Source: Methanosarcina acetivorans C2A
Lineage (GTDB): Archaea; Halobacteriota; Methanosarcinia; Methanosarcinales; Methanosarcinaceae
DNA length: 64,000 nucleotides
Reading direction: 5' to 3'
Assembly: GCF_000007345.1 (NCBI RefSeq)
Contig: NC_003552.1
Location: forward strand, 1,178,001-1,242,000
Translations under genes and position numbers: made by a program
Shown here: in pieces, positions 48,433 through 61,806 of the stretch
Numbering within the stretch: the first letter of the stretch is position 1
Layout: every line of letters begins with the position of its first letter
Notes under the pieces: generated by a model
Told to the model about the DNA's origin: nothing
The model's input: only the letters and a program-made list of their open reading frames with translations
The model's database searches: none

Positions 48433-48710
48433 TATTTTGTTTTGTATCTTTCATTCGGAAGGTAAACATATAGATTAATATTATTAATTTTATACCTCTT
48501 TCCCGGTCTTCCCATGACAGAGAAAAACAGCAGTAGAAGAGTTGAATCCTCCTTAAAACGTACAAGGTTCTTAGGTAACCTCGGCCTTATCAGGCTGTCC
48601 TACAATTACCTCCGGTAATAAATGAAATCCTTCTTTTTTGATTTAAAGGGCTTATTTGCTTTCTTTTTAGCACTTTTTTATTACTACCAATAATTGTCGG
48701 ACATCCCCTT

Positions 48711-50263
48711 ATGACTGGAGTTTTCAGAGAACTTGAAGTTGACAAACTGATCGATGAGAAACTTCCAAAAGAAAGAGATCACACCGTCCCTCACTCAGTT
48801 TGCATCTTTGCCATGGTAATCAATGGTCTTGGTTTCATAGGGCAACGTCTGTACCTGTTCCCTGATTTTTTCAAAAACATTTCTACGGAAAGGCTTTTAG
48901 GAGACGGTATGACAAGAGAAGACCTGAATCAATACGTTATCGGAGAGACTCTTGACAGAATCGTCAGATACGGCCCTACAAAACTGTTTACGGAAATTAC
49001 TCTTCACATTATGGCTCGTCTACCTATTCCTGTTCACTGTTTACACGCTGACACTACAAGTGTCAGCGTTTATGGGGATTATGATGACGAAGAAACTGAG
49101 TTTATTGACATTACTTTTTGAGTTCCTGAAAACGGAAGATAGGATCTCAAGCAGTTTGTGCCGAGCTTGATTGTTAATCAGCATGGGATACCTCTTTTCA
49201 TGAATACACATTCAGGAAATGCTTCAGACAAAAACACAATTCTGGAAGGAATAAAATCTCTTAAATCAGTTTTAAGACCTGAAAGCAAAGTGTACTATGC
49301 CGCTGATAGTTCCTTTTATACAGACAATAATATCCAGAACATAGGAAGGTCATTATGGATCAGTCGTGTTCCTGCAACAATTACCGAGGCAAAGGAACTG
49401 ATAGCTTCAAATATGAACTTGCAAACGCTAAAAAGTGATGAGAGGTACTCATTCTATCGAACTTTTGTGGAATATGGCGGAATAAAACAAAAGTGGGTTT
49501 TGTTGCTTTCTCACAAGATGAAAGAGAAGAAAGAGCAAACTCTAAGGATGAAGCTTGACAGAGAGGTTGAAAAAGCAGAGAAGTCTTTTAAAAAGCTGAA
49601 AGGAGAAAATTTCTTCTGCGAAGAGGATGCATTAAAAGCCGCAGAGAAATGGATTGCAGATTTCCCTTCTGTCTCACTTGAAAAAGTAGATGTGAAATCC
49701 ACTAAAAAACGTAAATCGGGTAAAAGAGGAAGACCTTGAAAAGATGAGGAATTAAAGACTTATTACAGGATAGATGGCAGCATAAAGGTTAATGATGCTT
49801 TTTTTTGAAAAAAATGGAGAAAATGGGACTTTTCATCCTTGCGAGTAATGTTATCAGTCTTTCTCCTGAAGAGATGCTGAAGTATTACAAAGGTCAGGAT
49901 AACGTGGAAAAAGGATTCAGCTTCTTGAAAAGTGATACATTTAGCATATCGAAAGTTTACCTCAAGAACAAAAAGAGAATTGAAGCGCTGACTATGATAA
50001 TGGTTCTCAGCTTAATGATTTATTCAATTGCAGAATGGAAATTATGGACAAAATTAGACGAAGAAAATGAAACGGCTCCAGATCAAAAAGGGAAACCAAC
50101 AAAAAGACCTACAATGAGATGGATATTTTTCAATTTCCAGGGAATTACAGAACTTATTTCTCAGAACGAAGGACAAATGAAATCAGAAATATTGAATATG
50201 GAGGAGATTCACTGGATGATATTGAGGCTAATGGGGAAGAAATATGAAAATGTCTATCTCTGA
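48711..50263 (+). pseudogene. IS1634-type (DUF4277) transposase, inactivated
   Basis: The N-terminal part matches DUF4277 (FRELEVDKLIDEKLP, DHTVPHSVCIFAMVINGLGF) and includes HADTTSVSVYG with the first DDE Asp. The second part has IPLFMNTHSGNASDKN, and the third has EKGFSFLKSDTF with the catalytic Glu region. There is an in-frame TGA at 49119 and TAG at about 49140, a second TGA at 49737, and a poly-T frameshift at about 49800. Ends and target duplication were not found. The frame is beyond repair. Confidence 0.85.
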
Positions 50264-50491
50264 TTAAGTTAACATGCCGAATAAACGTTATATATCCACA
50301 TTAAATAATTATATTACTTTAATTATTTTAATTATCTCCTATTAATATAAAGTGTAGAAGTTTTTTGTAATTAAAGACTAGGTTTTTAATTAAATAGTAA
50401 AAAATATATTCAATTAATATGAAATTAACTTTAAAGAGTGCGATTACTAAACTCTATGACCCTTAAGTGAAAATGAAGGAGATAATGGTGG
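50264..50491. other. AT-rich spacer upstream of the biosynthetic cluster
   Basis: Very AT-rich; several TATA-like words such as TTATATAT at 50289-50296 could serve as promoter. GAAGGAG at 50476-50482 is the ribosome site for the carrier protein. Confidence 0.35.
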
Positions 50492-50737
50492 ATGGAACAG
50501 ATAAAAAACTGTTTAATTGATTATCTGAAAGCCAATTCTTTTATGGATAAAGATACTCACCTGGAAGACAGCGATTCTCTTACTCAAAACGGCATCATAG
50601 ATTCGATTGGCCTTCTGGAACTAATTGACTATATTACTGAGAAATACTCTATCGAAATTCCAGAAGAAATGTTGACACCGGAAAATTTTGACACTCTACA
50701 GGGAATTAGCAATATGATACACAAACTGGCGAAGTAA
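50492..50737 (+). CDS. Acyl carrier protein
   Basis: The 81-residue protein has the phosphopantetheine site D37-S38 in IIDSIGLLEL, with the helix II sequence typical of stand-alone carrier proteins and an acidic overall charge. Archaea do not make fatty acids with carrier protein cycles, so a stand-alone carrier next to an adenylating ligase points to secondary or glycan metabolism. A phosphopantetheinyl transferase would be needed and none is nearby. First gene of a six-gene plus-strand cluster. Confidence 0.88.
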   Translation: MEQIKNCLIDYLKANSFMDKDTHLEDSDSLTQNGIIDSIGLLELIDYITEKYSIEIPEEMLTPENFDTLQGISNMIHKLAK

Positions 50738-50743
50738 AAAGAA

Positions 50744-52231
50744 GTGAAAAATATGCGAATTGATGCGTATATATCAGAATACGCCAGAAAAACTCCTCAA
50801 AGCGTTGCCCTGGAAGATAGCAAAAACTCGGTTTCCTATGGCTGTCTCGAGAAGGACATAAGTAATATAGCTTTATATCTGAAGGATTTTAAACGTTCCA
50901 GATTTACAATACTTGCAGAATCCGATATACAGTATGTAAAACTTCTCCTGGCTGTATACCGGTCTGAAAATATTGCAATCCCACTGCCAATAGAATTTCC
51001 CAGGTTCAGCCTTGAACGAATTCTTGATTCTGCCCATGTCAACAATATAATTACAACAGATACTCAGTACTCAAGGTTTGGGAAGAGCTTTTTTGAGCGT
51101 TTCGGAACTGTCGTTGTTACTTACAATGATATGTCAGTAAATATCCTCCGTAAGGAGATTAAAGACGAAACCAACAATCCTGAACTGAGATTGGTTCTCT
51201 ATACTTCCGGCACAACAGGTACTCCAAAAGGGGTCATGTTGAGTGACAGGAACCTGATAGCAAACGGAGAATCAATAATAGGAGTGCTTGGCATAACTTC
51301 TGAAGATAAAGGAGCGCTTGTGATATCTCCGCATCACGCTTTTGGAAACTCTATTCTCAATTCCCATCTGATGGCTGGAGGTTCTGTCCGAATAGGAACA
51401 ATGAATTTTATGAATTCTGTTTTTAATCTGATAGGGTCAGGAGTATCAATTTTTTATGGCGTGCCCAGCACCTATCGCATGCTTCTCAAGTATCCAGATA
51501 GGTTCAGGCAGGTTTTTACCGGTGTCAGAACCGCTGCTTCAGCAGGCGGAGGTATGGATAGGTCAATCGTAAAAGAGATCCGAGAGCTTGCTCCGTGGCT
51601 TGAAATTCTGCCAATGTATGGGCAGACCGAAGCTACGGCAAGGCTTGCCTATGTGCCGGCAGAAGACGTGGATAAATTTATTGATACGATAGGAAAAGCA
51701 ATTCCTGGAGTTACTCTGGACGTCTTTGACTTTGAGTGCAGATCGGTAGAGCCAAACATAGAAGGTGAGCTGGTTGCCAGAGGGGAAAATATCCTGATAG
51801 GTTATCTTGATGATGAAATTGCTACTAAGAGTAAGGTTGTAAACGGATGGCTTCATACAGGAGATCTTGCACAAAAACTGCCCAATGGATATATCCGGCT
51901 GCTTGGGCGCAAAGATGACATTATAAAAATCGGGGACCATCGTGTGAATCCCAGAGAAATTGAAAGATATATAGAGGAGAATAACACGGTCTCCAGGGTT
52001 TTTGTTGTGCCTGTATCTCATGAACTTATGGGGACTGCTATTAGCCTCATGGTCATGCCTGCGGAAGGGACAGAAATTGAAGCCCTTTATGCTTTTTGCA
52101 GGAAGAATTTTCCAGGTTATCTCTGCCCAAGAGAAATACTTTTTATCGATTATATCCCGTTGAGCGAGAACGGGAAAATATCCAATAGATCAATAATAGA
52201 GGAATACCAGCATGTCAAAAGTAGTATGTAA
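50744..52231 (+). CDS. Acyl-adenylating (AMP-dependent) ligase
   Basis: The 495-residue ANL enzyme has the phosphate loop YTSGTTGTPKG (about 153-163), the adenine motif MYGQTEA (about 290), the ribose-binding Asp in LHTGDLAQ (about 370-377) and the GRKDDIIKIGDHRV hinge (about 387-400). The final Lys is in LSENGKISNRS (about 483). It should activate a carboxylic acid as adenylate and load it on the neighbouring carrier protein (spacing 6 bases). GTG 50744 is used, ATG at 50753 is an alternative. The frame overlaps the next gene by 20 bases. Confidence 0.92.
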   Translation: MKNMRIDAYISEYARKTPQSVALEDSKNSVSYGCLEKDISNIALYLKDFKRSRFTILAESDIQYVKLLLAVYRSENIAIPLPIEFPRFSLERILDSAHVNNIITTDTQYSRFGKSFFERFGTVVVTYNDMSVNILRKEIKDETNNPELRLVLYTSGTTGTPKGVMLSDRNLIANGESIIGVLGITSEDKGALVISPHHAFGNSILNSHLMAGGSVRIGTMNFMNSVFNLIGSGVSIFYGVPSTYRMLLKYPDRFRQVFTGVRTAASAGGGMDRSIVKEIRELAPWLEILPMYGQTEATARLAYVPAEDVDKFIDTIGKAIPGVTLDVFDFECRSVEPNIEGELVARGENILIGYLDDEIATKSKVVNGWLHTGDLAQKLPNGYIRLLGRKDDIIKIGDHRVNPREIERYIEENNTVSRVFVVPVSHELMGTAISLMVMPAEGTEIEALYAFCRKNFPGYLCPREILFIDYIPLSENGKISNRSIIEEYQHVKSSM

Positions 52232-53228
52232 AAAGTGTATTCTGGATTCTGATATTCCAGGTATAACTATTAATATGGAAACTGGTTTCTGCCATTTTTG
52301 TGAAACTTATGCTCCTCTCTCTCTTCAGGAAAAGGGCGAGTACTTGGCAAAAATTGAAGAACTTTTTGAAAAACACCGGGGAAAAGGCAACTACGATGTT
52401 ATCTATGCACTTTCCGGTGGGAAAGACTCTTCATACACGCTTTACAAACTCAAAAAAGACTATCCTTTCCTGAAGGTTCTTGCTGTCCAGTTTAATAACG
52501 GATTCATTTCCGAAGGCGCAGTAAAAAACGCAAAAAAAATATGCAAAATAACAGGCTCCGACTACTACCAGCTGACAATGCAAAATAAGATTCTTTATGA
52601 TACATTCCGAAAGGCAGCCGAATCATATGATGCGTTTCCCAAGTTCGCTAAGTATAGAGCCAGCGACATATGCAATATCTGTATAACTATCATCAAACAG
52701 AAACTGATAGAGCAGGCAATTGTTCAGAAAGTACCTTTTATTGTATTTGCTTTCACGGCCGGGCAATCTCCAAACCCCATAATAAACCTTTCACCTAATT
52801 TTATAAAATGGTCCAGAAACATGTTTGAAACACAACTTCAAAAGATAGGCATCCATGACAAGGACGAACTTTTCCTGGTCAAAAATAAAGTTATTGAAGA
52901 TCTGGAGGGAAGTGCTCCGAGTATCCTTCACCCACTTTGTCTATGGGAATATAGCGAGGATAAAGTACTTGAGACACTTCTGGAGATCGGATGGGAACCA
53001 CCTGGAATCAATGACAGTAACTCAACCAACTGTACATTAAACTCTTTTGCCTGCTATAACCATCTGGAAAAATATGGGTTCCATCCATATACCTTTGATA
53101 TAGCAGGGCTTGTCAGAAGCGGAGAAATGTCAAGGGAAGAAGGGCTTGAAAAAATTAATCAGGAACTTTCAAGACCGTTAATAGAAGAAGCTGCAAAGAA
53201 GCTTAAGTTGAATCTCAAAGAAGATTAA
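52212..53228 (+). CDS. PP-loop ATP pyrophosphatase, sugar amidotransferase-like
   Basis: The 338-residue protein has a four-cysteine N-terminal zinc site (C6, C9, C27, C30) and a PP-loop SGGKDS (68-73), which adenylates a carbonyl or amide. It resembles the WbpG/PseA group, which works with ammonia to turn N-acetyl sugars into acetamidino sugars, and more distantly the ExsB/TtuA enzymes. A second metal site is possible from CNIC. No HisH/HisF-like ammonia supply is in the cluster. The overlapping start with the ligase implies coupled expression. Confidence 0.8.
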   Translation: MSKVVCKKCILDSDIPGITINMETGFCHFCETYAPLSLQEKGEYLAKIEELFEKHRGKGNYDVIYALSGGKDSSYTLYKLKKDYPFLKVLAVQFNNGFISEGAVKNAKKICKITGSDYYQLTMQNKILYDTFRKAAESYDAFPKFAKYRASDICNICITIIKQKLIEQAIVQKVPFIVFAFTAGQSPNPIINLSPNFIKWSRNMFETQLQKIGIHDKDELFLVKNKVIEDLEGSAPSILHPLCLWEYSEDKVLETLLEIGWEPPGINDSNSTNCTLNSFACYNHLEKYGFHPYTFDIAGLVRSGEMSREEGLEKINQELSRPLIEEAAKKLKLNLKED

Positions 53229-53306
53229 GTTGAGTTTTAAAGAAGCTCAAAATAAACACTCAAATTCTTTTAATTGAACATTAAAATCACTTCAGGAGAA
53301 AATATT

Positions 53307-54299
53307 ATGCAGGAAACGGAAGAACCCAGTGTTAAGATAACGGAAGAACTCAACAAGGATATTGAAAATCTGGCATTAAACATCAGGGGTTTTATTAAAA
53401 GCCAGATCTCAGGTTTTAAGAAAAAAGGAGCTGTTCTGGGAGTATCGGGTGGAATTGATTCAGCTGTAGCCCTTACCCTCTGCGTACAGGAACTGGGAAA
53501 GGAACATGTTTATGGTCTTATACTTCCTGAGAAAGAGTCAGCCCCTTCAAGTAAAGTTCTGGGCGCAGAAATCTGTGAAAGCCTGGGTGTAGCATACGAG
53601 GAAGTCCCAATCTCTCCAATTGTGGAATCCCTTAACATTTATGAGAAGAAAGAGCAGGTTATAAAGAGAGCCTGTCCTGAATACGATCCTGCAATACACA
53701 AAACTTCGCTAATCTTCCCGGATTTCCTTGACCAGGAACTCCTGAACGTTCCTTATATCCGGCTGATAAAGGACGGCGAGACGGTCGGAAAGTACAGGTT
53801 GAAGGCTAATGACTATCTGGAGCTGATCGGGTTGCAGGGTGTCAAACAGCGGTCCAGAATGATAGTCCAGTACATGTATGCTGAGAAGATGAATTACGCT
53901 GTGTGCGGCACAACCAACAAGACTGAAGTTGCCCTTGGTCAGTTTGTCAAATATGGAGATGGAGGTGTGGACCTCGAACCTCTGGCTGACTGTTATAAGA
54001 CCCAGATCTATGCTCTTGGAAAACATTTGAATATCAATGACGAGATCATGAGACGCCCCCCAAGTGCTGACACATGGAGCCATTATACGACTGATGAGGA
54101 ATTCTACTGGCGTATGCCCATGCACATCATGGATCAGCTGCTGTATTCTCAGGAACACGATTTACCTCCTGGTGTTATTAGTGAAAACACAGATCTGTCA
54201 ACGGATAAGATAGAGAAGGCTTTAAAGCACATCAGAAGAATTAAAAACACCACAGAATATATTAGGGCTGTTCCGCCTGTATATTATCTTAATAGATAA
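53307..54299 (+). CDS. NAD-synthase-like ammonia-dependent ATP pyrophosphatase
   Basis: About 330 residues from the ATG at 53307, which has AGGAG 9-13 bases upstream. The P-loop SGGIDS is at 47-52 and GTTNKTEVALGQFVKYGDGGVDLEPL (about 201-226) is the NadE active region. True NH3-dependent NadE proteins have about 250-275 residues. This one carries an extra stretch of about 50 residues between the two motifs (about 115-165), so another substrate is likely. Being next to another PP-loop enzyme, a ligase and a carrier protein, it probably makes an amide in the same pathway. Family nadE identity is not certain. Confidence 0.75.
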   Translation: MQETEEPSVKITEELNKDIENLALNIRGFIKSQISGFKKKGAVLGVSGGIDSAVALTLCVQELGKEHVYGLILPEKESAPSSKVLGAEICESLGVAYEEVPISPIVESLNIYEKKEQVIKRACPEYDPAIHKTSLIFPDFLDQELLNVPYIRLIKDGETVGKYRLKANDYLELIGLQGVKQRSRMIVQYMYAEKMNYAVCGTTNKTEVALGQFVKYGDGGVDLEPLADCYKTQIYALGKHLNINDEIMRRPPSADTWSHYTTDEEFYWRMPMHIMDQLLYSQEHDLPPGVISENTDLSTDKIEKALKHIRRIKNTTEYIRAVPPVYYLNR

Positions 54300-54571
54300 T
54301 TATCTTAATAGATAAATTGAAGGCAACGGGTAGAAAAAATGATTTTTTAGCCAGAGCCAGAAATAAATTATTATGGTCATAAATAAGGTTTTTACGGCTT
54401 TGCCTTCTGTAAGAACACCATAAAACCAACCATTAACGTATCTGAACAATCTGTACTTGAGAAGATGTTTCAAACATAAATTTTTTTCTTTAAGACAGAT
54501 AACTTGAATTTAATTAAAGGTGAACTGTTATAGCCTAACATAAATTAATTCAGTAGCTCAAGTGTGTAACT
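54300..54571. other. Spacer within the cluster
   Basis: It begins with a repeat of TTATCTTAATAGATAA from the end of the NadE-like gene. No frame is supported; a separate promoter for the last two genes is possible. Confidence 0.35.
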
Positions 54572-55705
54572 ATGAATACCAGGGTTTCTATTGTCCGCTG
54601 CAATGACTATTCGGAAGCAAAAGATGCGATCAGAGAATCACTAAGCCTGATAGGCGGTCTTGAGACTATCATATCTCCCGGCAACCAAGTACTGCTTAAG
54701 CCAAATGTCCTTTCCATTCGACCTCCAGAGGACGCTGTCACCACTCATCCGGCAGTAGTCGCTGCAATGTGCGAACTGGTTAAAGAGGCAGGAGGTGTTC
54801 CGGTAGTAGGTGATGGGTCCGGAATTATAAGGCCCGGGTCTACCAGTACTTCTCAGGCGTTGAAGGTGTCAGGTATTGAAGCTGTTGCTTTCAGTTGCGG
54901 GGCAGAACTCATCAATTTTGAGACTTCAGGATATGTAGAGGTTGATGTTCCTGGCTCAAGGCAGTTCCCTCGTCTGCACATAGCAAAAGCAGTACTTGAA
55001 GCAGATGTAGTAATTTCCCTTCCTAAACTCAAGACACATGAGCTCACGCTCTATACGGGAGCGGTCAAAAATTTCTTTGGGGCCATTCCTCAGAAAACAA
55101 GAAAACAGGCACATGCCCTTGAAGACCGTAACCGTTTTGGAAATGCCATTGTTGATATATACTCGGTTGTCAAGCCTCAGATCTCAGTTATGGATGGCGT
55201 GATCGGAATGGAAGGAAATGGCCCTTCGGGAGGTACGCCTGTAAAGGCAGGAGTGATAATGGCAAGTCATGACTGCGTGGCTCTGGATATCATAGCTTCC
55301 GAGCTTATAGGGATCGACCCTATGAAAGTTCCTACAAACAGAGCTGCAATCTCAAGAGGGTTTGGGACGGAACATCCAGAGGTTGTTGGTACACCTTTTG
55401 AAGAAGTAAAAGTCAGGTTTAAAAGCCCTGAGGGTGGAGTTACTGCTTATGTCCCCTCTTTTCTAATGAGGATACTTCGAACTCAGTTAACTGTAAAACC
55501 TTTTATCAATACCTCAAACTGTAAACTTTGCAAAGCTTGCGTTTTGAACTGTTCGGTACATGCCATTGAAGAAACAGGCAGTGCACTCAAAATCAACCAG
55601 GAAAAATGTATCCAGTGTTACTGCTGCCGGGAACTATGTCCTAGCGACGCGGTGGAAATAAAGAAATCGATGCTTTTAAAGCTTGTGACCAGGATTAAAC
55701 GCTAA
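54572..55705 (+). CDS. DUF362 protein with two 4Fe-4S ferredoxin motifs
   Basis: The 377-residue protein starts with a DUF362 domain (about 1-285), visible as LLKPNVLS, TTHPAVVAA, VISLPKLKTH and VKNFFGAIP. At the C-terminus are two [4Fe-4S] motifs, CKLCKACVLNC and CIQCYCCRELC (about 315-365). The family occurs in many anaerobes, and the function is unproven, although a redox role is likely. It follows the NadE-like gene after 270 bases in the same direction. Confidence 0.88.
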   Translation: MNTRVSIVRCNDYSEAKDAIRESLSLIGGLETIISPGNQVLLKPNVLSIRPPEDAVTTHPAVVAAMCELVKEAGGVPVVGDGSGIIRPGSTSTSQALKVSGIEAVAFSCGAELINFETSGYVEVDVPGSRQFPRLHIAKAVLEADVVISLPKLKTHELTLYTGAVKNFFGAIPQKTRKQAHALEDRNRFGNAIVDIYSVVKPQISVMDGVIGMEGNGPSGGTPVKAGVIMASHDCVALDIIASELIGIDPMKVPTNRAAISRGFGTEHPEVVGTPFEEVKVRFKSPEGGVTAYVPSFLMRILRTQLTVKPFINTSNCKLCKACVLNCSVHAIEETGSALKINQEKCIQCYCCRELCPSDAVEIKKSMLLKLVTRIKR

Positions 55706-55846
55706 AGAAAAGTTTATTTAAATATCAGTTTCTGTATCAATATTCTCTCACATTTCGAATACTGGACGCAGGAAAAGGGTACTTTCTGGTGAAAGAGTAT
55801 GATAAGCAACAATTATTTTTCATTATAAAATTGGGAAGGCAACACC

Positions 55847-56371
55847 ATGATATCCAACAGAGATAAAGTGACTTTTGGTGAAGTATCCAATCACTATCAT
55901 AGTAATAAAATCTTATTTGGATTCAGGTATCTGAAGAACTGGTTTTTAGAACAGCTTGCATCAGTTTTTCCTGTTCCTTCCTGGAGAGCAAAATTGCACA
56001 AAATGAGGGGAGTAAATATTGGGAAAAACGTATACGTCGGTTATGGTGTGGTTTTTGATCGGCTCCACCCTGAGCTAATCACAATTGGAGATTATGCAGA
56101 GATTGGTGACCGGTGTATACTGTCTGCCCATACAAGAGGCAGTTTAACTACAAGACAAGCGTATCCGAGAACCATGGCTCCAATCAAAATAGGATCCGGA
56201 GTTTCTATTAACCCGGGATGTATCATTATACAGGGAGTCGAGATTGGTGAAAACTCGATAATAGGAATAGGGTCCGTAGTTACGAGAGATATCTCCCCAA
56301 ACAGTCTTGCTCTTGGCTACCCTGCCAGAGTTGTTAAAAAGCTTGATGGCGTAGGTGAGCTCCAAACCTGA
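55847..56371 (+). CDS. Hexapeptide (left-handed beta-helix) acyltransferase
   Basis: The 174-residue protein has hexapeptide repeats of the LbetaH fold (VNIGKNVYVGYGVVFDRL, ITIGDYAEIGDRC, IKIGSGVSINPGC, VEIGENSIIGIGSV), as in maltose and serine O-acetyltransferases. The catalytic His is probably in SAHTRGS. It would transfer an acyl group from CoA or carrier protein to a sugar or amine. The N-terminal 50 residues are not part of the helix. It is the last gene of the cluster and supports a surface glycan or modified sugar as product. Confidence 0.88.
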   Translation: MISNRDKVTFGEVSNHYHSNKILFGFRYLKNWFLEQLASVFPVPSWRAKLHKMRGVNIGKNVYVGYGVVFDRLHPELITIGDYAEIGDRCILSAHTRGSLTTRQAYPRTMAPIKIGSGVSINPGCIIIQGVEIGENSIIGIGSVVTRDISPNSLALGYPARVVKKLDGVGELQT

Positions 56372-57802: not shown

Positions 57803-58717
57803 TTGTGTTTTATCCCGAAATTATTTCGCGCTAAATATGTCGGTTGTAATCCCTTATCTTTTTCGACGATAGCTGAGATCCAGGGGATCTCAGCCCGTCG
57901 AGTTCAGCAGATCTACAAAGAATACGTTGAAACTGGTCAGCTTCCTCAAGTTGGCATTAATCTTGGAAGACCAAAGAACCCCTTATCCTCCTCTGATAAG
58001 GAATTGATTGACCAAACTTACTCTGATTATAAGTTTGGAGCCTGTTACCTTGAGATTCTCATCGAAGGCAAATATAATCGTAAGATATCTCATAACAGAA
58101 TCCATAACTATCTACTTAGCATGGACCTTGCCAAGGAAAACCGAAAAAAGAAACAGAGAAGAAAATGGTGTAGATACGAACGCGAACACAGCATGTCTGC
58201 TGCACACATCGATTGGCATGAGAATCCCCTGTTAGGACTTCAAGTCTGTGCCATTCTTGATGATTCATCAAGAATGATAATTGCAGGTGGAGAGTACGTT
58301 CATTGCAACACGGAGAACACCATTAAAGTGATTGATGAACTTGTTAAAGAGTACTGGGACATATACCCTTTAAGAGAGCTCATTATGGATCATGGAAGTG
58401 AATTCGGAGCTCACAGGATTAATAAGGATAGTTCATGGGATAGTGACTTTAAAAGATGCATTGAAGAACTTGGAATCAAACCAATACTTGCAAGGGTAAG
58501 ACATCCTCAGACAAACGGAAAAATAGAGAAATGGTTCGATACATATCAAAGGTTTAGAGGAGAGTTTGAATCATTTGAAGAATTCGTACAGTGGTATAAC
58601 AAGAGGCCTCATGGAGCTTTGAAACTTGAACAGTTAGAATCGCCACAGGAAGCATTCTGGAATAGATTACCAGTTGAGGCAAAGTTCAGAATAGGAGTGA
58701 GATTGTTTGGGTGGTGA
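57803..58717 (+). CDS. IS481-family transposase
   Basis: The frame of 304 codons holds the IS481 helix-turn-helix (TIAEIQGISARRVQQIYKEY) and an rve-type DDE core: Asp in HIDWHENP, Asp in LIMDHGSEFG, and Glu in NGKIEKWFDTY. The C-terminus ends normally (GVRLFGW). The first ~16 codons lie in the terminal repeat, so the true start is probably inside, and about 20 residues of the usual N-terminus may be missing. It could be active. Confidence 0.88.
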   Translation: MCFIPKLFRAKYVGCNPLSFSTIAEIQGISARRVQQIYKEYVETGQLPQVGINLGRPKNPLSSSDKELIDQTYSDYKFGACYLEILIEGKYNRKISHNRIHNYLLSMDLAKENRKKKQRRKWCRYEREHSMSAAHIDWHENPLLGLQVCAILDDSSRMIIAGGEYVHCNTENTIKVIDELVKEYWDIYPLRELIMDHGSEFGAHRINKDSSWDSDFKRCIEELGIKPILARVRHPQTNGKIEKWFDTYQRFRGEFESFEEFVQWYNKRPHGALKLEQLESPQEAFWNRLPVEAKFRIGVRLFGW

Positions 58718-58771
58718 AAACATGGACAAGAGGAAAAAAGTTTCAAAGCGAAATTATTTCAGGACAAAACA
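57806..58771. mobile_element. IS481-family element inside the IS630 left end
   Basis: It is 966 bases long, with 24-base terminal inverted repeats (TGTTTTATCCCGAAATTATT... and its imperfect complement). The flanking 15 bases TTGACAGCTTAGTTG occur at both 57791-57805 and 58772-58786, a target duplication. Confidence 0.9.
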
Positions 58772-58823
58772 TTGACAGCTTAGTTGTGAGTCACTTATAT
58801 ACTTTGAGTTCTTTTTATATCTT

Positions 58824-59921
58824 ATGTTAAATATTAATCTTAACAATAATGAAGTGAAATTCCTTACAAACTTTATAAAAAAAGGACTGAAAAGTGCAAG
58901 ATCAATTACCAGAGCACGTATTCTACTACTGGCAAATCAGGGAAAAGGAGACACCGAGATTGCAAAAACGTTAGGTGTTGGTAGGAGCACCGCTTTAAGG
59001 ATAAGGAAAAGATATCTTGAAGAAGGTCTACAAAGTGCTTTGGTAGATAAGCCAAGATCAGGTCAACCTAAAAAATATAATGAAAGGCATACTGCAGAAA
59101 TAGTAGCTTTAACATGCACCAAGCCTCCTGAAGGAAGAAAGAGATGGTTGCTTGCACTGCTCTGTGAGGAATTGAGAAAAAAAGAAGGCTTTGAAACGAT
59201 AAACAAAGAAACTATCAGACTTATTTTGAAAAAGAATAAAATTAAACCCTGACTGAAAAAAATGTGGTGCATTGAAACGATTAATTCTGAATACAGAAAG
59301 AGAATGTACGACGTTCTTGACCTGTACGAAGAAGATTACGACCCGAAAAGACCTATTATCTGTCTCGATGAGAAACCCATACAACTTATCGAAGATAAGC
59401 GAAAGCCCATTCCAATGAAGCCTGGAAGTCCAGAGAAGTATGATTATGAGTACACCAGGAATGGAGTGGCAAACATATTCATAGCTGTAGAATTCAAAGC
59501 AGGAAAAAGGGTCACTCAAGTTACTCAAAGAAGAACAATGACAGATTTTGCACGATTCATGAAACTTCTTGTCATCGATGAATATTCAGAAACTGAAGTA
59601 GTCCGGGTAGTTACAGATAATCTCAATATCCACAAAGAGAAATCATTCTATGAAACATTCAGCGAAGATGAAGCTGAAAAGATTCTGGAAAAGATAGAAT
59701 TTCATTACACGCCAAAACATGCAAGTTGGCTCAATGCAGCCGAAATAGAGATTAGTGTGATGGATGAAGAATGTACTGATAGGCGAATAGGTGACATTGG
59801 AATGCTGACGAATGAAGTGGATGCTTGGACCAGGAGAAGAAATGAAGATAAAAAGAAAATAAACTGGAAGTTCACAAAGAAAATTGCTAATGAGAAGATG
59901 TCCAAATATTATGTTTCATAA
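58824..59921 (+). pseudogene. IS630-family transposase with an in-frame TGA
   Basis: The N-terminal half is a homeodomain-like helix-turn-helix (SARSITRARILLLA, GDTEIAKTLGVGRSTALR). The second half has the DDE core: Asp in ICLDEKPIQL, Asp in RVVTDNLNIHK, and Glu in SWLNAAEIEISVM. Both halves lie in the same frame, separated only by one TGA at 59250-59252 where Trp (TGG) is expected (KIKP-stop-LKKMW). Nothing else is damaged, so this is a recent nonsense mutation or, less likely, read through. Confidence 0.88.
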
Positions 59922-60209
59922 TTAAATTGTCAAGGTACTAGGTTAGAGTTATGGAATCCACAAACATGGCAGATTTTAGTTGATGGCTCGAACTGTCCTG
60001 TTCTTAAAACGGTTTTGCCTAACCATTCAGCTTTATGTTCCATTTTTGTCACAAAACTGCTCTATGATGCATCAGAAATTGATTGTGCAAGGCAATGATT
60101 TTTCTGCATACCTTTTACATTCAGAGTTTCCAGTGCAATAGCTTGGTTCTCGCTAACAAGTTTAGAAGAGAGTTTATGCTGGAAATCGTTTCTCTGATTG
60201 TTAATTTTC

Positions 60210-61806
60210 GAGACTTTTTATTATTTTCTGGTTTTTCGTTTTCCCTCTATATCGTGCAAAACAATAAAATTTTAATTATATTGATATATTTTTTCTATTT
60301 ATGGGAAAAGGAAACATTGCAATAGATAAATCTATGATAAAAACGATAGTTGACGGCAAAATAATAATTCCTTTGCCAAAAGTTTTGGTTGAAAATCGAT
60401 ACTATCCTATGTTCTCTATATTCTCCCCTACTCAGTGTGATAGTTGTGGAAGTAAATTACATGTTAACTCTCATCACACTCGTTTTATTATATCACGTTA
60501 CGGCACTATATCTCTCAATGTTACATACTGGCTTTGTCCCACTTGTAAGAAACATTATCATGATCGGGTTATTGGTGTTCAGGGTTCTGCAAATTACAGT
60601 TCTGAATATTATGATACACAAATAAATGTCAGATACGATGGACGATGCAGTCTGCACAATTCTCGGCGAATTGGGGAAACATATACAGAAGGAGTAATAA
60701 ATGTCTGTGGAAGAGCTCCTTGTCCCACTTCATTGTGGTTATATGAACAGAAACTAGCAAAACTTTCAAAGCAAGAACTTTTGAACCAAGGAGTTAGCTT
60801 TGAAGAAACATTGTATGTTGATGGGAATTGGATCAAGAATGGATGGAAAAAAAAGCTTGAAGAATTTATTGGAACGAAACTCACAAAGAAAGAATGGAAA
60901 AAAATGCGATATAAATCTGTTTACGTTGTTGCTACCAAAGAGAAGGTCATTTTAGATTTTGAAGTAACTGAGAGGTTACCAACAATTGAGGCTCTGATGC
61001 CTCTTTTCATACGAATAAAGAACCGATTTCCTGAAGATAAAATCAAAAAGATTGTTTCTGATGAGGATAAAGCGATCATTGGAGCCGTAAAAATGGTCTT
61101 TCCTGAAGTGACTCATTCTTTTTGTGTGTTTCATCAATTAAAAAACGTTAGTAAGAGGTATTATGAGGAATTCAGTTCTGTTGAAGAGATTCCAGATAAC
61201 GATAAGATTACCTACAATGAGATATCTCAATTGATACTTTCTGATACGGTTATCAGTGCTGTTGCGCATATTCAGAAGATACGAGAATTTAACTCTGATC
61301 TTGAACTTTCTGAAGCGTCTCATAAAGCGATTTCTTATGCCGAAGAGATTTTCAGCAAGAATGTGAGCTTCTTGAAAAAAGGTTTTACACCTGAGACAGA
61401 TAATACAATGGAACAAATATTTTCTTTGATATGTGATATAGTAGACAAAGTAAGGTCATTCAAAACCGATAATGGACTAACTAATTTTTGTTACAATCTA
61501 TTTACTTTTTTCAACAAACGGTGTTTCAGCACTGGAAAATGGAAAGGTTTCTCACCTTTAATGAGAGCAAGATTCCAATATGGATAATGCTAGAATTGGA
61601 GAATAATTAGTTCTTAAACTTGATGGCTTATAGCTGTAGCTGTCGGAAATTCCCACAAAAATAGTTCCACAATTTGGAAAATTTTGGTGAATGCTTGTGT
61701 AAATGAATCAACATTTTTAAATGAGTGAATTGATTTGCTCAAATTGGGATGAAATTTTGTGGTTGTCTTGAAATTGAAGAAAAACCAGAAAAAATTAAAA
61801 AGACTC
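60210..61806. mobile_element. MULE-like insertion sequence with 8-base target duplication
   Basis: It is 1597 bases long, with ~30-base inverted ends (GAGACTTTTTATTATTTTCT and complement-like right end). TAATTTTC occurs on both sides (60202-60209 and 61807-61814). Confidence 0.88.
60301..61587 (+). CDS. MULE-domain DDE transposase
   Basis: The 428-residue protein has an N-terminal zinc-finger region (CDSCGSKL, CPTCKKHYH), then a MULE-type DDE core: Asp in LYVDGNWIK (about 176-180), Asp in KIVSDEDKAIIGA (about 250-262) followed by THSFCVFHQLKN with the CxxH, and the Glu in TDNTMEQIFS (about 365-372). It is intact and ends before the right repeat, so the element might be active. I cannot match it to a named IS family; an ISNCY or ISH6-like group is a candidate. 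Confidence 0.85.
   Translation: MGKGNIAIDKSMIKTIVDGKIIIPLPKVLVENRYYPMFSIFSPTQCDSCGSKLHVNSHHTRFIISRYGTISLNVTYWLCPTCKKHYHDRVIGVQGSANYSSEYYDTQINVRYDGRCSLHNSRRIGETYTEGVINVCGRAPCPTSLWLYEQKLAKLSKQELLNQGVSFEETLYVDGNWIKNGWKKKLEEFIGTKLTKKEWKKMRYKSVYVVATKEKVILDFEVTERLPTIEALMPLFIRIKNRFPEDKIKKIVSDEDKAIIGAVKMVFPEVTHSFCVFHQLKNVSKRYYEEFSSVEEIPDNDKITYNEISQLILSDTVISAVAHIQKIREFNSDLELSEASHKAISYAEEIFSKNVSFLKKGFTPETDNTMEQIFSLICDIVDKVRSFKTDNGLTNFCYNLFTFFNKRCFSTGKWKGFSPLMRARFQYG

Follow-up and report, generated by a model that had tools for sequence, protein, structure and literature searches.

Within a 64,000-nucleotide window of the closed 5,751,492-base genome of Methanosarcina acetivorans C2A (positions 1178001-1242000; coordinates below are those of the window unless a contig or locus is named), six genes at 50492-56371 on balance probably encode a dedicated thiotemplated pathway, in which an acyl group held on a carrier, probably as an amide, would receive sulfur and then be passed on by an acyltransferase. 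We infer every reaction of this pathway from the sequence, i.e. from gene content, conservation, motifs and co-occurrence. An earlier note made from the same DNA had listed six genes here with their families, and these were borne out by a check of the open reading frames (ORFs), all six of which are present on the plus strand, and by the scores of the family profiles:

50492..50737, plus strand: stand-alone acyl/peptidyl carrier protein (ACP), 81 residues (Pfam PP-binding, 24.1 bits, over the cut-off)
50744..52231, plus strand: AMP-forming acyl ligase, 495 residues (AMP-binding, 172.8 bits, plus the C-terminal domain)
52212..53228, plus strand: PP-loop enzyme (PPL), 338 residues (SGGKDS loop; cysteines C6/C9/C27/C30; predicted [4Fe-4S] triad C154/C157/C274)
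53307..54299, plus strand: NadE-like ATP-dependent amide synthetase of the PRK00876 subfamily (NCBIfam NF002048, 487 bits)
54572..55705, plus strand: DUF362 protein with a C-terminal 2x[4Fe-4S] ferredoxin domain, accessory (PF04015, 216 bits, and two Fer4)
55847..56371, plus strand: left-handed beta-helix (hexapeptide) acyltransferase, accessory and a candidate for the transfer step (PF00132, 46 bits)

The tight spacing described earlier is seen for ACP, ligase, PPL and NadE (a 6 bp gap, a 20 bp overlap and a 78 bp gap, respectively), and only these four genes are tightly packed, because 272 bp separate NadE from the DUF362 gene, and 141 bp the DUF362 gene from the hexapeptide gene. The start of the ligase kept among its relatives is probably the ATG at 50753, and the structure prediction of the DUF362 protein was poor (predicted local distance difference test score, pLDDT, 43), so that this model was not used.

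Orthologs of PPL (67-85% identity) were found in 51 of the 112 Methanosarcinaceae genomes, representing 5 of the 14 genera, and 40 orthologous loci were fetched around them for counts of gene content. ACP, ligase and PPL occur together in all 40 loci, with the ligase ortholog adjoining the ACP every time, while the NadE-like gene is present in 38, the hexapeptide gene in 26 and the DUF362 gene in 25. This grouping of ACP, ligase, PPL and NadE is far beyond chance; these four genes are the core of the system, and the DUF362 and hexapeptide genes are lineage-restricted accessories. Pairwise ratios of nonsynonymous to synonymous divergence (dN/dS) against relatives lie at 0.05-0.12 for each of the six genes wherever dS is unsaturated, and all six are under purifying selection. 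Scanning the GTDB contigs yielded 38 loci, among them two from Methanoregula metagenome-assembled genomes (L137 and L143) and one on a Thermoplasmata-labelled contig (L141), and a phylum-wide search added two archaeal genomes of other families (G274 and G393). In these five cases the core genes recur with shuffled order and orientation, which argues for functional linkage beyond the plain inheritance of one operon. L141 has flanks similar to those of L137 and L184, and its contig may therefore have been assigned to the wrong bin, which would narrow the actual spread; as only two of the genomes sampled outside the Methanosarcinaceae in the phylum-wide search have the NadE subfamily, the system is patchy rather than general. 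The conservation of the neighbourhood, on which the earlier note had made its proposal depend, is therefore present in the Methanosarcinaceae and a few other archaea, and the conserved gene set supports the carrier pathway with acid activation and loading proposed there. A role connected with methanophenazine was considered and dropped on our own reasoning, since the cluster is missing from many Methanosarcinaceae and present in Methanoregula, for which we know of no use of methanophenazine.

The PP-loop of PPL (SGGKDS, residues 68-73, with D72 and S73) has an invariant S-G-G-x-D-S, and both the N-terminal tetracysteine C6/C9/C27/C30 and the cysteines C154, C157 and C274 are invariant as well. 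In profile-profile alignments, C154xxC157 falls on the CxxC of NcsA with a probability of 97-98% (97.5-98%), and C154, C157 and C274 are predicted to be the ligands of a [4Fe-4S] cluster. PPL has the PP-loop and the aligned CxxC in common with NcsA, TtuA and TtcA, whereas its spacing to the third cysteine is longer. NcsA holds its [4Fe-4S] cluster via three conserved cysteines, and it uses inorganic sulfide in a methanogen (PMC10067955). Among about 40 proteins resembling the N-acetyl sugar amidotransferases (NASATs), the three cysteines are either wholly present or wholly absent: every member with adjacent HisH/HisF (8) or a fused glutaminase (3) lacks the triad, whereas no triad-bearing member has either, although an AsnB-type glutaminase, unrelated to these, lies 6.4 kb from one of them. 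This exclusion is strong but incomplete, and the sequences compared are related. The tree, whose root was set at the midpoint and falls on the NcsA branch, suggests about three losses of the triad within the NASATs; most simply, the triad would be ancestral and tied to sulfur chemistry, and would have been given up by those lineages that changed over to glutamine-derived ammonia. The PPL cluster contains no HisH/HisF or glutaminase gene, and by these features PPL looks built for inserting sulfur rather than nitrogen. A second NASAT-like protein of M. acetivorans (C1:4459205-4460245; L239, L187) keeps the triad and lies inside the NASAT clade without a HisH/HisF partner; it is perhaps a sulfur transferase misannotated as an amidotransferase.

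The searches of plasmids gave three carrier-linked bacterial relatives of PPL only. The closest are of two kinds: a Roseovarius domain inserted within the adenylation domain of a nonribosomal peptide synthetase (NRPS), beside a carrier domain (Pseudohalocynthiibacter has the same neighbours within a polysaccharide locus), and a domain of Streptomyces sp. NBC_01216 fused to a condensation domain, beside an adenylation-thiolation (A-T) protein and AsnB. The triad is kept in both the Roseovarius and the Streptomyces relative. Because the closest bacterial relatives are embedded in or fused to NRPS proteins, the PPL lineage is suggested to act on carrier-bound substrates.

To our knowledge, a single bacterial pathway is the only known instance of thiotemplated thioamidation. 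In the formation of closthioamide by Ruminiclostridium cellulolyticum, CtaC, an Fe-S enzyme of the same superfamily, thioamidates carrier-bound substrates only, and its activity is lowered by mutation of C154, C157 or C284 and requires D77 and S78 of the PP-loop (PMC6772006). The PPL residues that would correspond are C154, C157, C274, D72 and S73, and the distance from the CxxC to the third cysteine (117 residues in PPL) is nearer to that of CtaC (127) than to that of the related thiolases (about 89). Common to both systems are an NRPS-independent thiotemplate with free carrier proteins, a PP-loop enzyme with a cysteine triad, and anaerobic hosts. PPL thus has each of the CtaC-type features checked at sequence level, i.e. 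the PP-loop site, the CxxC...C triad and the linkage to carrier genes. The two pathways differ in that the closthioamide genes for ATP-grasp, transglutaminase, hydroxybenzoic acid (HBA) and beta-alanine have no counterpart here, while the archaeal set has a NadE-like enzyme, a DUF362 ferredoxin and a hexapeptide or GNAT transferase.

The earlier note had also made its proposal hinge on a phosphopantetheinyl transferase (PPTase) in the genome. A search of the M. acetivorans genome with PF01648 gave no match, even at E<5, and this null result, taken as proof that a PPTase is missing, would have wrongly spoken against the pathway. Immediately upstream of the ACP in 29 of the 40 loci lies an ORF of about 231 residues with invariant G-x-D-x-E (G-I/V-D-x-E) and W-T-x-x-E-x-Y-x-K motifs, whose profile matches Sfp of B. 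subtilis at 1.5e-11; by these motifs and this match it is a divergent Sfp-type PPTase missed by PF01648. In M. acetivorans it is found beside a second copy of the cluster (L031):

C1:4598323-4599018: PPTase of M. acetivorans

Among the Methanosarcinaceae, a high-scoring PPTase is present in 50 genomes, PPL in 51 and both in 49, with mismatches in three genomes (G101, G093 and G068, of 60, 81 and 86% completeness), and genomes with two or three copies of the cluster (e.g. G000, G079, G080 and G103) hold one PPTase only. As this co-occurrence is near-perfect, with a single PPTase even where there are several copies, the PPTase is very probably dedicated to this carrier, and the ACP very probably primed by it. 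The three Methanococcoides loci L043, L047 and L048 each have one in-frame TAG at the same position of the PPTase (L043:13278-13280, L047:7609-7611, L048:7782-7784), past which the frame stays conserved; this could be pyrrolysine read-through of UAG or a shared pseudogene. Methanococcoides sp. SMBSF09 has a GNAT gene in the usual PPTase slot just upstream of the ACP (L046:13249-14409), and an intact PPTase elsewhere in its genome.

With regard to the NadE-like partner, M. acetivorans has its canonical NadE elsewhere (C1:4360949-4361677, 288 bits), whereas the cluster protein belongs to the PRK00876 subfamily (487 bits against a cut-off of 313) and carries about 56 extra residues between two halves matching canonical NadE in an alignment to 3p52. 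Members of this subfamily are also encoded on 116 plasmid records from rhizobia and azospirilla, three annotated examples of which have the order GNAT-AsnB-ACP-ligase-NadE, while Sinorhizobium americanum has asnB-ACP-ligase-NadE with the GNAT farther along. The rhizobial cassette shares with the archaeal cluster the NadE subfamily, the carrier and ligase logic and, at some archaeal loci, a homologous GNAT (the rhizobial GNAT is weakly homologous to those beside L141, L143, L183 and L184), but has AsnB in place of PPL, and no PPTase was seen beside it. At the level of sequence, an amide-forming step and an acyltransferase are thus a common theme of the archaeal and rhizobial sets. The cassette (L149, L150, L151 and L152), which adjoins min genes in Sinorhizobium, carries no annotation beyond NAD(+) synthase and asparagine synthase; it has the look of a carrier pathway that, as far as found, is not yet described. 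Outside carrier clusters there is another, divergent NadE-like paralog (184-194 bits; G088:C81:353-1228 and G086:C19:296045-296932), which in G088 lies near tat genes.

The proposed pathway would start with the divergent Sfp-type PPTase of the second copy priming the ACP, as predicted from its sequence and co-occurrence, most plausibly within the motif GIIDSIGLLEL at S38, which together with D37 is invariant from archaea to rhizobia. The ligase, judged by its family and the conserved gene order, is predicted to adenylate a carboxylic acid, an alpha-amino acid being improbable, and to load this acid onto the ACP; a FabG-like reductase gene after NadE in 15 loci, mostly outside Methanosarcina, hints at a beta-oxo or beta-hydroxy acyl group. 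The NadE-like enzyme, as expected of its family, would use ATP to activate a carboxylate and add ammonia, giving an amide. PPL would then use ATP to activate the oxygen of the carrier-bound amide or acyl group, and put sulfur in its place, yielding a thioamide or some related thio group, with the sulfur delivered in the manner of CtaC by the [4Fe-4S] cluster on C154/C157/C274, and most simply taken from cellular sulfide. Finally, the hexapeptide transferase, or a GNAT in other lineages, might transfer the acyl group, the acceptor being perhaps a surface-glycan amino sugar.

Several observations weigh against sulfur insertion. The AlphaFold model of PPL (pLDDT 91.5) has as its closest solved fold not a thiolase but the NASAT of Legionella (8WEX, TM-score 0.70), followed by the [4Fe-4S] thiolases NcsA and TtuA (0.32-0.40); the C-terminal halves of PPL and these thiolases could not be aligned, and the profile alignment with NcsA failed to place C274 on the third Fe-S cysteine. 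The likeness to CtaC is one of published residue positions and gene context, nine triad-less members of the family have no glutaminase partner in the region examined, and rhizobia use AsnB where the archaea have PPL, so that the NadE step does not have to lead into sulfur insertion. In line with some of this, the earlier note had read PPL as a WbpG-like amidotransferase and proposed amide or amidine formation; PPL would then form amidines, acting together with the NadE-like enzyme on an amide bound either to the carrier or to a sugar, and a glycan would be decorated with the product. PPL and the NASAT/WbpG/WbuX proteins have fold, distant homology and the N-terminal Zn-type tetracysteine (described for NASAT in PMC10607449) in common, WbuX is the top NCBIfam family of PPL, the NadE partner handles ammonia, and some relatives lie in glycan loci. 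We nevertheless regard this as unlikely: the WbuX score is 119.2 bits, below the cut-off of 203.2, the NASAT clade (99/98) excludes PPL (clade 100/99), and PPL is carrier-linked, without HisH/HisF or glutaminase, and keeps the triad that resembles those of NcsA and CtaC and that all glutaminase-linked members lack. Amidine formation is therefore unsupported.

What the sulfur product would be is a separate matter. It is possible, though we hold it only tentatively, that the NadE-like enzyme makes an amide, that PPL as a CtaC-like Fe-S enzyme thionates it on the free carrier and that the thioamide acyl group is passed to a cell-surface sugar, which would be the first archaeal thioamidation of the thiotemplated kind; we know of no organism with a thioamide acyl group on a cell-surface sugar. 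A link to surface glycans, the modified glycan being one of two products suggested in the earlier note, is plausible, because two archaeal loci and the roseobacter plasmid relatives sit among polysaccharide genes: L183 is surrounded by a flippase, glycosyltransferases and a DegT-type aminotransferase, and L184 by polysaccharide deacetylases, an acetyltransferase and a glycosyltransferase (names read from the sequences by eye). No glycosyltransferase genes were seen beside either M. acetivorans copy, and for this species the genes around the Methanosarcina copies lend the glycan link no support. The same Fe-S logic and the same lack of neighbouring glycosyltransferase genes would suit a carrier-bound thiocarboxylate or other thio group that ends in a sulfur-donating or metal-binding small molecule rather than a glycan substituent; this is doubtful, and rather more so than the amidotransferase, as an amide-forming NadE-like or AsnB partner fits a route from amide to thioamide, and transferase genes are present. 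Decay is seen in some copies (NadE is missing and the ligase broken in L038, and the DUF362 gene of L031 is broken), as would be expected if the NadE-like protein were an NAD synthetase of the usual kind and the other genes were only loosely assembled or the remains of a decaying set, but this is very improbable and largely refuted by conservation, given the canonical NadE elsewhere, the extra insertion in the subfamily, the low dN/dS and the building of the same set in unrelated gene orders.

The second cluster copy in M. acetivorans (G000), at about 4.592-4.599 Mb (L031), has an intact PPTase and a DUF362 gene broken into several ORFs, whereas the window copy has an intact DUF362 gene and no PPTase, so that each copy makes up for what the other lacks. 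Like L038 and L032, in which iorB directly precedes the ACP, the window copy belongs to the iorAB-linked type; in the window copy only, an insertion sequence (IS) lies between these two genes:

48451..50491, plus strand: IS region holding a transposase with DUF4277 that is divided among several ORFs (PF14104, 118.6 bits), between iorB and ACP

This region had no match in the 40 loci fetched from relatives. The idea that the IS had replaced a PPTase gene upstream of the window ACP was rejected, since the iorAB-linked L038 and L032 have neither PPTase nor IS at this place. Transposase-like genes occur on both sides of the cluster (48711-50263 and 57803-61587). The iorAB-linked copy L038 (G080:C1:3963001-3983000) is decaying, with a fragmented ligase gene and NadE lost, and the other copy of that genome (L037) keeps both.

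In the literature searched, from which subscription journals were largely absent, we found no paper on the cluster itself and no archaeal thiotemplated thioamidation pathway that has a cryptic PPTase of its own and a NadE-like partner. The PPTase family seen here escapes the standard model, and the comparison of PPL with its relatives offers a sequence rule, in which presence of the triad would indicate sulfur, and its absence together with a glutaminase would indicate nitrogen, for a large family that is uniformly labelled as N-acetyl sugar amidotransferases. If the proposed pathway is correct, then archaea, including the genetically tractable model archaeon M. acetivorans, would run a thiotemplated sulfur chemistry thus far demonstrated only in an anaerobic bacterium.

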